Source of the DNA: Latilactobacillus sakei
GTDB taxonomy: Bacteria > Bacillota > Bacilli > Lactobacillales > Lactobacillaceae
Assembly (NCBI GenBank): GCA_002953655.1
Contig: CP025839.1
Coordinates: 1,736,001 to 1,800,000 of the forward strand
Length of the DNA: 64,000 nucleotides
Reading direction: 5' to 3'
Part shown: one piece after another, positions 8,603-57,975 of the stretch
Position numbering within the stretch: position 1 is the first letter of the stretch
How the letters are laid out: each line of letters begins with the position of its first letter
Notes under the pieces: generated by a model
Database searches by the model: none
What the model was told of the DNA's origin: nothing
The model's input: only the letters and a program-made list of their open reading frames with translations
Translations under genes and position numbers: made by a program

Positions 8603-9748
8603 CTAAACTTTCCAAACTTCCTGAATTATTTTTTGCGTCGCCGAACCATCGGTGTTCGCATTGTGTAACTGATTAAATGCTTTTGTCGTTTGTGTCGTTA
8701 ACCCTTGACTAAGCAATGTATACAGGTCTTGATTATCTGTTACTAATGGCCCTGGGATAAAGGCTTGGTAGTCAAAATAAAAGCCCCGTAAAATAGCCTG
8801 ATATTTATCCAAATCATACGCGTAAAAAACAATCGGTTTTTCCAATAACGCATAATCAAAGAAAACAGATGAATAATCAGTCATTAAAACATCGGCTGCT
8901 AGATACAACTCTTCGATACTTGCGTAGTGATTGACATTATGCACATGTGGATAAGCCGCAATGTCTGGCATTTGTTCCGCCACGTTTGGATGCAAGCGAA
9001 TTAACAAGTCATATTGATTACCCAATTGTGCTTCAAATTGCTCTAAATCTAACGCTAATTTAAACGTAGGTTCATCATCTCGAAAAGTAGGTGCATATAA
9101 AATAGTTTTGCGTGTTGCATCTAATTGTAGTTTCGCTTTCAAACTAGCTACCAATTCATGATCATCTTTATGCTTCGCTAAATAATCATTCCGTGGTAAC
9201 CCATAGCTCATAATCTTAGTTTGCTTTAAATTAAATGCTCGTTCATACAACCAATTATCTTCAGGTGCATTAGACACAAAGTAGTCCCAGTTAAGGGGTT
9301 CTCTTGCCGTCAAGCGTTTGAAGTCATTATCATCTGGTAAATCATTGCCAATGTGCTTAAGCGGCGTACCATGCCAAGTTTGCACAAAAACCCCATTTTT
9401 ATGGGGTTTTAGACGGAATGGAAAGTTAATATCCATAATCCAATATTTAGCACGCGCAAGCGCCTTTAAATAGGCCTTCTCGTGTCTGGCAACAAATTGG
9501 ATATTAATACCCGGATATTGGGCCTTAACTGCTTGTCGCGCTTGTTCGTCATTTAAAACAATAATATAGTTACCGTTAGGGAATTTCTCAATCAAACCTT
9601 CAAAGAGGGCTTTGGGATTACCTGAGAATGATTTTCCAAAAAAAGAATTGATAAAAAATGTGTCGTCTGACATTGGTGTGACTAATTTAATCAAACCAAA
9701 CCAAATACGATGATATAAAACTGCTTTAACTGTTGCGATAGCCGTCAT
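8603..9748 (-). CDS. TagB/TagF-like CDP-glycerol glycerophosphotransferase
   Basis: 381-residue member of the Glyphos_transf family, which transfers glycerol phosphate from CDP-glycerol to a lipid-linked acceptor at the inner membrane face. Diagnostic pieces are WHGTPLK at residues 125-131 and the C-terminal MTDYSSVFFDYALL, both part of the active site in TagF. It is shorter than full TagF polymerases and could be a primase (TagB-like) or side-group transferase. The start overlaps the preceding gene by 23 bp. Together with tagD it implies glycerol phosphate in the polymer. Confidence 0.9.
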   Translation of the reverse strand: MTAIATVKAVLYHRIWFGLIKLVTPMSDDTFFINSFFGKSFSGNPKALFEGLIEKFPNGNYIIVLNDEQARQAVKAQYPGINIQFVARHEKAYLKALARAKYWIMDINFPFRLKPHKNGVFVQTWHGTPLKHIGNDLPDDNDFKRLTAREPLNWDYFVSNAPEDNWLYERAFNLKQTKIMSYGLPRNDYLAKHKDDHELVASLKAKLQLDATRKTILYAPTFRDDEPTFKLALDLEQFEAQLGNQYDLLIRLHPNVAEQMPDIAAYPHVHNVNHYASIEELYLAADVLMTDYSSVFFDYALLEKPIVFYAYDLDKYQAILRGFYFDYQAFIPGPLVTDNQDLYTLLSQGLTTQTTKAFNQLHNANTDGSATQKIIQEVWKV

Positions 9749-25346: not shown

Positions 25347-25348
25347 GC

Positions 25349-25468
25349 TTAAACGTGCTTTTCAAAACTGCCTTTTCCGGTTAACTACAAAATGAGCAGT
25401 ATGGCTAAAACCTGCCATACTGCTCATTTTTAGGTTAATCCTCAAAGTCAAATCGTTCGAGTCCGCAC
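25349..25468 (-). repeat. 3'-UTR hairpin element behind proC (copy D)
   Basis: About 120 nt beginning 1 nt after the proC stop codon, sense orientation. It begins GTGCGGACTCG, carries the family motif GACTTTGAGGATTA and ends CAGTTTTGAAAAGCACGTTTAA, like copy 3 at 57667. Its apical part is a near-perfect hairpin AATGAGCAGTATGG / CCATACTGCTCATT (25389-25432) followed by Ts, which can serve as an intrinsic terminator. Confidence 0.75.
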
Positions 25469-25469
25469 G

Positions 25470-26276
25470 CTATTTTTGGCTTTCCAAGTCTTTTTCAATT
25501 GTTGCGTCAATGCCTTTGACGACTGCTGACATTAGACCTGCTTCTTCCATTGCCAATAAGCCAGCAACAGTTGTGCCACCTGGTGATGATACTTTGTCGA
25601 TCAAGTCCCATGGTGAATCGTCACTCATCAGAACGTTTTGAGCGCTCCCTAAAACAGCTTGGGCTGCGATTTCAGTGGCCGCTTTCTTGGTTAAACCGTG
25701 TTTAACACCAGCCCGTGCCATTGAATCGATGAATAAGTAAACAAAAGCTGGTGAACTACCAGCAAGTGCGCTGAAAGTTGTGAAGTCTTTTTCACCAATT
25801 TCAACAACGCCACCTAATTGTGACAAGACATCCTTCACGCTGTTCAATTGATCAGCGCTCACTTGTTCATTACCGACAACGGCTGTGATACCAGCGCGGT
25901 TAGCAACGTTGACGTTGGGCATAATCCGCAAAATAGGCAGGTTATCCGCGTCCACTTGTTGGCTTAATTTAGCCAATGAAAGACCGGCTGCCATTGAAAC
26001 CATTAATGGTTGCTTTTCTTTAAAAGCAGCGCCTGTTTCTTCTAGAATAAGTGGCACAATATATGGTTTAACCGCCAAGAAGACAATATCAGCTTGTGCG
26101 ACTACCGCGATGTTATCTGCCACTGGTGTAATGTGTTGTTCAGCCGCAAATGCTTCATAATTTGCCGGATGAGCCCCGTGGACCAAAATATCCGTTGTTG
26201 CGATCTGATCGGCTTTAACTAAGCCTTTAATCATTGCTTGTGCCATATTACCGACACCAATAAAACCAATTTTCAT
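25470..26276 (-). CDS. proC: Pyrroline-5-carboxylate reductase
   Basis: Last step of proline synthesis: NAD(P)H-dependent reduction of pyrroline-5-carboxylate. 268 residues from the chosen start. It has an N-terminal Rossmann loop GFIGVGNMAQAMI, the VFLAVKP segment, and the C-terminal substrate signature SPAFVYLFIDSMARAGVKHGL plus SPGGTTVAGL. ATG at 26276 was chosen because AAGGGGTGGCAG precedes it and it gives the family N-terminus; an upstream in-frame ATG adds 19 non-conserved residues. Its 3' end runs into hairpin element D. Confidence 0.95.
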   Translation of the reverse strand: MKIGFIGVGNMAQAMIKGLVKADQIATTDILVHGAHPANYEAFAAEQHITPVADNIAVVAQADIVFLAVKPYIVPLILEETGAAFKEKQPLMVSMAAGLSLAKLSQQVDADNLPILRIMPNVNVANRAGITAVVGNEQVSADQLNSVKDVLSQLGGVVEIGEKDFTTFSALAGSSPAFVYLFIDSMARAGVKHGLTKKAATEIAAQAVLGSAQNVLMSDDSPWDLIDKVSSPGGTTVAGLLAMEEAGLMSAVVKGIDATIEKDLESQK

Positions 26277-52211: not shown

Positions 52212-52245
52212 AATTAGCGATATCGCCTACTGGCGCACGCTAATT
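52212..52245. repeat. Hairpin between pth and mfd
   Basis: AATTAGCG/CGCTAATT outer arms enclosing CGCC/GGCG. It overlaps the pth stop codon region. No T run on either side; probably an mRNA processing or partial termination hairpin. Confidence 0.5.
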
Positions 52246-52797
52246 AAATTTATTCATCGTTTTCATGAAATCGTCGTTTTGACACCAATCATCGATTGCT
52301 TCGCAAGCTTGATCAATCGCTTGATTAATCACTGGTGCGCCATCTTTATCAAATGGTGTTAGGACCCAATTGACCACCGTACTTTTTTGCGGATGTTGAA
52401 TCCCGATTTTAAGGCGCTTGAAGGTCTGGCTCTTCGTGTGCGCAATAATACTTTTAATGCCGTTATGACCACCTGCTGAGCCCTTTTGACGGAGGCGCAA
52501 TTTGCCCATCGTTAAATCCATATCATCTTGGATGACTAATAATTCATCAATTCCAACTTGATAGTAGCTCATCAAAGGCCCAACTGAACGACCAGAGTCA
52601 TTCATAAATGTTAGCGGTTTAACTAACAGGATGGTTTCACCTTCGTATTTGAAGCTACCATATTCGGCCTCAAAATCATGTTTATTGAGTGTTACGTTGT
52701 ATTTTTCACATAATTGGTCGATTACCATAAAGCCAATATTATGTTTCGTTTTAGCATATTTACTGCCCGGATTCCCCAAACCAACGATCATCTTCAT
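52240..52797 (-). CDS. pth: Peptidyl-tRNA hydrolase
   Basis: Frees tRNA from prematurely released peptidyl-tRNA. 185 residues from the chosen start. N-terminal MIVGLGNPGSKYAKTKHNIGF with the catalytic His, then KPLTFMNDSG, DDMDLTMGKLRLRQKGSAGGHNG. ATG at 52797 was chosen because GAAGAGGT precedes it; the longer frame adds 13 acidic residues. In the conserved pth-mfd order. Confidence 0.96.
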   Translation of the reverse strand: MKMIVGLGNPGSKYAKTKHNIGFMVIDQLCEKYNVTLNKHDFEAEYGSFKYEGETILLVKPLTFMNDSGRSVGPLMSYYQVGIDELLVIQDDMDLTMGKLRLRQKGSAGGHNGIKSIIAHTKSQTFKRLKIGIQHPQKSTVVNWVLTPFDKDGAPVINQAIDQACEAIDDWCQNDDFMKTMNKFN

Positions 52798-56606: not shown

Positions 56607-56728
56607 GAATCTCATTAATATTTAATTGTTTTTTCGCCAAGTCGAAAAACTAGTTATTTTAATTAAGGCAATGGTATGCTATGATTACATCAGTATATGA
56701 GAGAATTTTAATCTAAGGAGAAATGCTT

Positions 56729-57409
56729 ATGTTAATCAAATCCCTAGTGTTACCCAAAGAACGTCTAACCACAATTGAAGAATCCGTGACCCTCGAAGAG
56801 GCCTTAACCATTTTGGAAGATTCCGGTTACCGTTGTGTGCCGGTTTTAGATGCCAGTGGTAAGATCTTCCGTGGCAATATTTATAAAATGCACATCTACC
56901 GGCATAAATCTCAAGGAGGCGACATGCAATTGCCCGTTACCAGCCTCTTGAAGAATATGACAAAGTATATTCCGGTTGATGCGCCATTTTTCAAGGTCTT
57001 CTTCAACATCAAGGATTTACCTTACATCGCCGTCTTAGATGAAGACAGTAATTTCTTTGGTATTTTAACGCACAGTACCCTCCTTAACATGCTTTCAGAA
57101 GCTTGGAACTTAGAACTCAGTAGTTATGTACTCACGGTCCTTTCGGCCGGTGAACAAGGGGATTTGGTTGCCATGTCGAAAATTATCGCTAAGTACACCT
57201 CAATTGCTAGCTGCATGACCTTAGATGCTAAACAAGACGAATTCGTTCGGCGAACACTCTTCACACTGCCTAGCGGCTTAGATATCGAAATCCTTAAAAA
57301 AATTACCAATAAGCTTGAGAAAAAAGGGTTTAAAGTGCCCGAAATCGATGACTTACAATCAGGTAAAGTTCTTCGTAACGATTCTGACGAAATTGAAAAC
57401 GTGATTTAA
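56729..57409 (+). CDS. cbpA: CBS-domain protein, probable cyclic-di-AMP-binding protein CbpA
   Basis: 226 residues. Two N-terminal CBS motifs (VTLEEALTILEDSGYRCVPVLDASGKI; quoted in part as EDSGYRCVPVLDASG, and LPYIAVLDEDSNFFGILTHSTLL) are followed by an ACT-like C-terminal domain of about 90 residues. This layout matches CbpA, which binds c-di-AMP in Listeria and LAB; the effector target is not known from sequence. The second ATG (56729) was chosen because AAGGAG is 8 bases before it; the first would be 2 bases away. Its 3' end is followed by four tandem hairpin elements. Confidence 0.85.
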   Translation: MLIKSLVLPKERLTTIEESVTLEEALTILEDSGYRCVPVLDASGKIFRGNIYKMHIYRHKSQGGDMQLPVTSLLKNMTKYIPVDAPFFKVFFNIKDLPYIAVLDEDSNFFGILTHSTLLNMLSEAWNLELSSYVLTVLSAGEQGDLVAMSKIIAKYTSIASCMTLDAKQDEFVRRTLFTLPSGLDIEILKKITNKLEKKGFKVPEIDDLQSGKVLRNDSDEIENVI

Positions 57410-57419
57410 ATTAAAAGAA

Positions 57420-57535
57420 GTACGTTTCAGGCAGTTATATTGTAGCGATTTAGCCTAATCCCGTGAATAAGTGATATGGTCGATTGTTTACGAGACGTAG
57501 CTAACTGCAACAATATGCCTGAAAAAGCACATTAA
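57420..57535 (+). repeat. 3'-UTR hairpin element, tandem copy 1
   Basis: About 115 nt starting 10 nt after the CBS-gene stop codon. GTACGTTTCAGGC pairs with GCCTGAAAAAGCAC; ATATTGT pairs with ACAATAT; GTGAATA pairs with TGTTTAC. Ends GCACATTAAA. Stem sequence differs from copies 2-4 but pairing is kept. Confidence 0.75.
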
Positions 57536-57542
57536 AGAGGAA

Positions 57543-57658
57543 GTGCGTTATCAGTGCTTAGCTTTTGAGCATTTGCAGAACTTAGCGAATTGGCGATGAA
57601 ATCACCGGTTTGATAAGTTTAGCAAAGCGCCGAAAGCTACTGACAAAAGCACGTTTAA
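57543..57658 (+). repeat. 3'-UTR hairpin element, tandem copy 2
   Basis: Type-A sequence, nearly identical to copy A behind nadE. GTGCGTTATCAGT pairs with ACTGACAAAAGCAC; apical GGCGAT/ATCACC; ends GCACGTTTAA. Confidence 0.8.
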
Positions 57659-57666
57659 GAAAAGAA

Positions 57667-57783
57667 GTGCGTTTGAAACGGTTGGACTTTGAGCATTAGC
57701 ACAGCTCGGTGAATAACTGCTGTAGGCAGTTGTTTGACGAGTGACGCTAAGCGCAGAAGTCAGTTTCAAAAAGCACGTTTAAA
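57667..57783 (+). repeat. 3'-UTR hairpin element, tandem copy 3
   Basis: GTGCGTTTGAAAC pairs with GTTTCAAAAAGCAC; inner AGCTCG/CGAG and apical AACTGC-TGTA-GGCAGTT. Contains GACTTTGAGCATTA, shared with copy D behind proC. Ends GCACGTTTAA. Confidence 0.78.
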
Positions 57784-57790
57784 AAACAAA

Positions 57791-57906
57791 GTGCGTTGTC
57801 AGTGCTTAGCTTTTGAGCATTTGCAGAACTTGGCGAATTGGTGATGAAATCACCGGTTTGATAAGTTTAGCAAAGCACAGAAAGTTACTGACAAAAGCAC
57901 GTTTAA
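57791..57906 (+). repeat. 3'-UTR hairpin element, tandem copy 4
   Basis: Type-A sequence, differing from copy 2 and from copy A at only a few positions. GTGCGTTGTCAGT pairs with ACTGACAAAAGCAC; apical GGTGAT/ATCACC; ends GCACGTTTAA. A conventional terminator follows at 57927. Confidence 0.8.
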
Positions 57907-57926
57907 CCCATCAATGTTCGAATAGT

Positions 57927-57975
57927 AAAAACGGCGCTAAAGACAAAATCACTTTTGTCCTAGCGCCGTTTTTTT
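57927..57975. terminator. Bidirectional terminator
   Basis: AAAACGGCGCTA pairs with TAGCGCCGTTTT, enclosing GACAAAA/TTTTGTC, then T7. Ends the CBS-gene/hairpin-array transcript and, on the other strand, queT. Confidence 0.92.

Follow-up and report, generated by a model that had tools for sequence, protein, structure and literature searches.

The four hairpin units behind the cbpA gene in the window (the whole stretch of 64,000 nucleotides of Latilactobacillus sakei analysed here) belong to a previously uncatalogued RNA family, which is confined to Lactobacillaceae in the genomes sampled. The family is large, with more than 100 copies in some genomes and members in 23 genera of lactobacilli, and combines unusually strong covariation with a fixed position relative to stop codons. 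Interspersed structured repeats of bacterial 3' UTRs are a kind already known; what is new is a Lactobacillaceae family within that kind.

The array behind cbpA and other copies in the window

The cbpA gene (56723-57409, + strand) encodes a cyclic di-AMP-binding CBS protein. Its identity, first proposed as cbpA-like, is confirmed by the curated model NF038387 (score 361 bits, cut-off 150), and the closest named cbpA is from L. fuchuensis (96%). The TAA stop codon (57407-57409) lies 8 nt before an array of four units on the + strand, each forming one hairpin as had been described, with a length of 119-120 nt per unit instead of the earlier estimate of about 115 nt, linkers of 3-5 nt and a period of 123-124 nt. 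Unit 1 (57418-57537) is the most divergent, with stem A TTTCAGGC/GCCTGAAA. Unit 2 (57541-57659) is of the ATCAGT subfamily and is 94% like unit 4, unit 3 (57665-57783) is of the TTTGAAAC/GTTTCAAA subfamily and is 96% like a copy at genome position 86392, and unit 4 (57789-57907) is of the GTCAGT/ACTGAC subfamily. All four outer stem pairs quoted in the preliminary description were found. The end pattern of the element occurs three times in the window (0.00 expected). The ends of unit 1 depart from the near-constant form, being degenerate: it begins with GTACGTT and finishes with AAAGCACATTAAA. Hairpin folding of units 1 to 4 gave z-scores of -4.5, -5.3, -5.8 and -6.5, and none of 200 dinucleotide shuffles folded as well in any unit. 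The MFE structure of the whole array pairs units 2 and 4 together around unit 3; as the energy model does not distinguish this from separate hairpins, it carries no inference on the independence of the units. An intrinsic terminator with 13-bp perfect arms and a T run (57927-57973, strand ".") follows 19 nt 3' of the array, so that the array occupies the 3' UTR, with the cbpA stop codon on one side and the terminator on the other.

Three further traces of the element are found in the window. A single copy (1404-1522, - strand) starts 4 nt past the nadE stop codon and is 93-95% identical to units 2 and 4 (95% to unit 4), as had been noticed. This likeness was taken earlier as a sign of recent spread, a claim that has to be weakened: the same subfamilies occupy both loci in a 95%-identical sister genome (G005), so much of the likeness is older than this strain. 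The first base of a divergent single copy (25348-25470, - strand) is the last base of the proC TAG stop codon. A remnant of the element start (52228-52249, - strand) lies directly at a stop codon, and the corresponding site in the sister genome holds an intact copy and a deleted copy. Elsewhere in the window, a PreQ1 riboswitch (RF00522; 58508-58552, - strand) precedes a gene that faces cbpA and encodes a 173-aa membrane protein, probably a queuosine-precursor transporter.

Copy number and range of the family

Within the 2.10-Mb genome that contains the window, a BLAST search returned 49 matches, and a covariance model built from 22 copies (R1) returned 136. After copies from a deeper scan were added and antisense duplicates removed, the tally was 142 copies at 90 places, comprising 58 single, 18 double, 8 triple and 6 fourfold arrays. 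A multi-genus covariance model (R2) was used for the family-wide survey, in which the element was present in 171 of 301 Lactobacillaceae genomes and in 23 of 40 genera, many genomes of the 301 being without it. Further copies are thus found throughout Lactobacillaceae. In the rest of the phylum, R2 found no member in a sample of 248 genomes, and R1 gave a single marginal match outside Lactobacillaceae (E 4.6e-4), seen once. The element had no match in phages, and among plasmids was found only in those of L. curvatus (CP117684.1, NZ_CP016468.1 and NZ_CP031004.1), which offer a possible route from strain to strain.

Membership of an Rfam family was rejected, since neither the window copies nor twelve loci from other genera and species scored above the gathering threshold in Rfam 15; a permissive Rfam scan of the array gave matches at chance level only. 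Searches of the openly accessible literature and of Rfam found no description of a Lactobacillus repeat of this kind.

Position relative to genes and proposed function

The placement of the element is strongly polar, a feature that goes beyond what had been described. In the genome of the window, 65 of 90 arrays (72%) have their start no more than 12 nt from a stop codon on the same strand, where 8.8 are expected if position and orientation are randomised within these gaps (20,000 draws, maximum 22). The mirror arrangement is seen for one array (p 1.8e-18). Element and stop codon overlap by one base in 15 of the 65 stop-proximal arrays, the third position of the codon being also where the element starts. 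With a strict finder, terminators were located 3' of 24 of the 65 and 5' of none. About a quarter of the arrays in this genome are not behind a stop codon, and about nine lie directly past a terminator. The proportion behind a stop codon among arrays sampled in other genomes was 22 of 22 (G008), 7 of 16 (G020), 6 of 13 (G094), 2 of 7 (G147) and 3 of 10 (G069), and the remaining arrays were farther off, on the opposite strand or directly past the T run of a terminator. Many copies in G020 (loci L298, L299, L301-L303 and L307) are of the last sort, following the T run of an intrinsic terminator and not a stop codon; such copies may be absent from the upstream mRNA.

On this evidence there is roughly an even chance that the element is a Lactobacillaceae-specific structured 3'-UTR element that would act in cis on termination and 3'-end decay in the manner of REP sequences, its copies being non-autonomous mobile DNA. 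Structure, strand, position, range within the family and the make-up of arrays from unlike units are established by the analysis, and function and mode of movement are proposed on that basis. Judging from their position and the terminators, arrays would be transcribed within the 3' UTR. At 0-8 nt past a stop codon, the first stem falls within the stretch that the terminating ribosome covers. REPs less than 16 nt from a stop codon lower translation, and do so only at that closeness (PMC12306157, citing an earlier study). This geometry, together with the REP effect, is why a REP-like action is held to be the most likely. The hairpin in the mRNA may act in cis as REP sequences do within about 15 nt of the stop codon, meeting the decay machinery as well as the ribosome at termination and thereby tuning translation output and the stability or processing of the mRNA at its 3' end. 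A common factor may bind the constant motifs of the internal loop, and copies may have spread by some mobile route and been kept where a sense hairpin follows a stop codon. The element is not essential, as the copy number at a locus changes between 95%-identical genomes and many Lactobacillaceae are without the family; it is probably a shared layer of control at message ends in these bacteria. The effect of stop-proximal repeats on translation and mRNA decay is an old question, which the family makes directly testable in tractable lactobacilli.

The same placement can be read as target choice. A purely selfish repeat, whose folded strand (RNA or lagging-strand single-stranded DNA) is the substrate of a mobility enzyme and whose structure is kept for movement only, could insert behind TAA or TAG with A-rich sequence or beside hairpins. 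The left flank of the elements is indeed A-rich, TGA is avoided before arrays (0 of 65 against 30 of 278, p 0.002), and some copies stand behind terminators. However, orientation tracks the gene and not replication: with the origin assumed near the contig start, 21 of the 65 stop-proximal arrays run against the assumed replication direction and still follow their gene, which also led to the rejection of the idea that insertion biased towards one replication strand had set the orientation. A selfish structure is possible and is ranked after REP-like action.

Array dynamics and mobility

Further evidence on a selfish origin comes from the arrays themselves, which are not duplicative in the simple sense. 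A unit is no closer to its neighbour than two units picked at random are to each other (likeness 0.582 against 0.576), and 0 of 44 adjacent pairs reach at least 85%. Arrays have therefore not grown by the copying of neighbours, or such copies are lost at once, and tandem duplication of one unit was rejected as the source of arrays. The selfish reading accommodates this well, as if each unit had arrived separately at one spot, and linkers within arrays resemble the gap between stop codon and element. Units two apart (i, i+2) are near-identical in 4 of 16 cases (Fisher p 0.004), which suggests occasional duplication of two-unit blocks. Near-identical units were seen never to adjoin but to alternate in an ABAB-like manner (L132 7291-7784, units 2 and 4 of the window, L140 2501-2863), which would fit duplication of two-unit blocks or an instability of identical neighbours.

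The sister genome G005 allowed 36 arrays to be mapped. Most array positions are shared between the two genomes and unit numbers differ: the cbpA array has two units there (of the GTCAGT and TTTGAAAC types) against four here, and the nadE site has two against one. That most positions are common to a 95%-identical genome means that active movement is rare, which counts against a purely selfish repeat. Clean empty sites between the two genomes were sought and rejected, as nearly all apparent ones keep end remnants or centre-deleted hairpins. Solo ends and centre-deleted mini-hairpins, with the outer arms joined, are the common forms of remnant (L127 near 9244-9290; G005 338937-339054; L126 11182-11301 and its G005 counterpart). 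Two hybrid copies (L013 and L023, genome positions 94014-94132 and 1696112-1696229) carry 5' and 3' arms from different subfamilies, so that the outer stem is broken, and point to recombination between copies and subfamilies.

A selfish repeat is further weakened by the lack of the usual enzymes in the genome of the window, despite its near-identical dispersed copies. The Y1/RAYT transposase domain PF01797 is absent from this genome, with positive controls detected, and RAYT/Y1 was ruled out as the mobiliser on this ground. Reverse transcriptase (PF00078) is likewise absent from it (G000) and from G002, G005, G008, G020 and G069, all of which carry the element; absent from most of the element-rich genomes tested, it was rejected as the mobiliser, and an element mobilised by a group II intron or retron was excluded by the same absence. 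In the element-bearing genome G147 (G147:C1), about 20 reverse-transcriptase matches were seen, many equal in score and group II intron-like; G094, a genus-mate that is likewise element-rich, has one. Arrays of unlike units in genomes missing the usual transposases raise the question of how such repeats spread.

Comparison with known repeats

Like REPs, the element is an interspersed palindromic repeat of 3' UTRs with a stop-proximal share; a share of E. coli REPs lies within 15 nt of the stop codon and lowers translation (PMC12306157), and here 65 of 90 arrays lie within 12 nt. Unlike REP/BIME sequences, it is a single interrupted hairpin of 119-124 nt, where a REP has 20-40 nt, and its arrays run head-to-tail on the sense strand, where BIMEs alternate in orientation. 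The 72% of arrays that are stop-proximal, the constant internal motifs and the lack of a RAYT-type transposase in the genome also separate it from REPs. The place of the element, and probably its action, are thus REP-like, but by size and by enzyme it is no member of the REP/RAYT group.

ERIC, BOX and the E. faecalis repeat Efa-1 (EFAR) are intergenic stem-loop repeats of about 100-165 nt with many copies per genome (PMC2267715). The element shares the intergenic position, the stem-loops and the copy number with them; they are set apart by description only, strict gene-sense placement and arrays of unlike units being features of the element that their descriptions do not contain. In the same repeat survey, L. 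johnsonii had only a coding-region family, Lac-1 (PMC2267715). The L17 downstream element (RF01708) is a structured RNA of Lactobacillales 3' UTRs for which G.U pairs gave evidence for the sense strand (PMC2864571), but it belongs to one gene (L17) and is no repeat, whereas the present element is repeated and without an Rfam match.

MITEs are also small, present in many copies and without coding capacity. The element may differ from them in its termini, where inverted repetition is clear for 4-5 nt and no further (GTG(C)/(G)CAC), and in showing no clear target duplication; words shared across the element junction slightly exceed those in shuffles (4.63 against 4.15), a comparison confounded by remnant neighbours. 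A covarying structure also fills the whole length of the element, unlike in MITEs. An intrinsic terminator was considered and rejected, as the element ends with CACGTTTAA, which fails the U-run criterion, and separate terminators lie downstream.

Architecture and selection on structure

The consensus opens at its 5' end with GAGTGYG and stem A (7-10 bp). A CGGKTA bulge, present only on the 5' side, comes next and leads into stem B (6-7 bp), after which stand TGAGCATTAAC, a very variable stem C and GTTAAGCGCAG; B', A' and ACACGTTTAA complete the unit. The constant motifs are the CGGKTA bulge and the TGAGCATTAAC / GTTAAGCGCAG loop, and they are also found in distant genera. Near-constant sequence is restricted to unpaired or loop-flanking positions, and the stems between them vary freely. 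Even the closing pairs covary among genera (GAGTG/CAC, GAGAG/CTC, GAGCG/CGC, GAGGG/CCC), so that conservation of sequence is highest at unpaired positions, and paired positions vary freely.

Such a pattern would suit a unit that is bound by an RNA-binding protein or regulatory RNA dedicated to it in Lactobacillaceae, with a regulon of some 70-90 messages and a hairpin that does little by itself. The 26 host genes that were typed include four for aminoacyl-tRNA synthetases, in keeping with this proposal. However, the host genes are mostly core genes of a general kind (groEL, glmS, glmM, thrS, serS, tyrS, leuS, purB, nrdE, rplL, nadE, cbpA and an acyl carrier protein gene), copy numbers per locus drift fast and no factor was identified. 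A dedicated trans-acting factor is judged improbable and is ranked below both REP-like action and a selfish structure. Also unlikely is a Lactobacillaceae post-transcriptional system in which one trans-acting factor would recognise a common RNA module that follows the stop codon in about 70-90 core genes, delivered as arrays of unlike units by a mobility that recognises stop codons or message ends.

The preliminary description held that the stems covary and that pairing is conserved, and the covariation proved statistically overwhelming. Of the three outcomes which that description named as refuting (missing covariation, no copies in related genomes, a match to a known repeat family), none was observed. 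In a set of 94 distinct copies drawn from many genera, pairing held in 94.1% of cells, covariation was 0.830, and 40 of 43 pairs had double changes; the alignment had been fitted to the model and includes, among 97 rows, about four that match in antisense. Controls in which the partner was slid by 1-3 columns gave 34-41% paired and covariation of 0.079-0.100. An unfitted MAFFT alignment of 22 copies from the genome of the window gave 96.4% paired and 0.590, against 30-42% and 0.04-0.11 for slid controls.

Selection on RNA or on a cruciform had been proposed, and of the two a single-stranded sense RNA is favoured by the sense, stop-anchored placement and by an excess of G.U over A.C. Among 128 copies of the genome, with pairs picked by Watson-Crick cells alone, departures from Watson-Crick pairing comprised 154 G.U and 54 A.C (p 2.5e-12, a value that overstates independence as the copies are related). 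The excess points to selection that acts on a single strand, namely the sense one. Neither a cruciform nor the opposite strand would yield it, although part of it could stem from C-to-T mutation that is linked to transcription and falls on the sense strand. The test is better evidence for the strand than for RNA, since a sense single-stranded DNA hairpin would likewise tolerate G.T. Template-switch (quasipalindrome) correction can change both arms together without selection, and hybrid copies with mismatched arms exist, but covariation arising from such correction or from selection on a DNA cruciform is highly improbable: correction would erase the non-complementary bulge and internal loops that are kept in all genera seen, the G.U over A.C excess is strand-biased, and placement is polar relative to genes.
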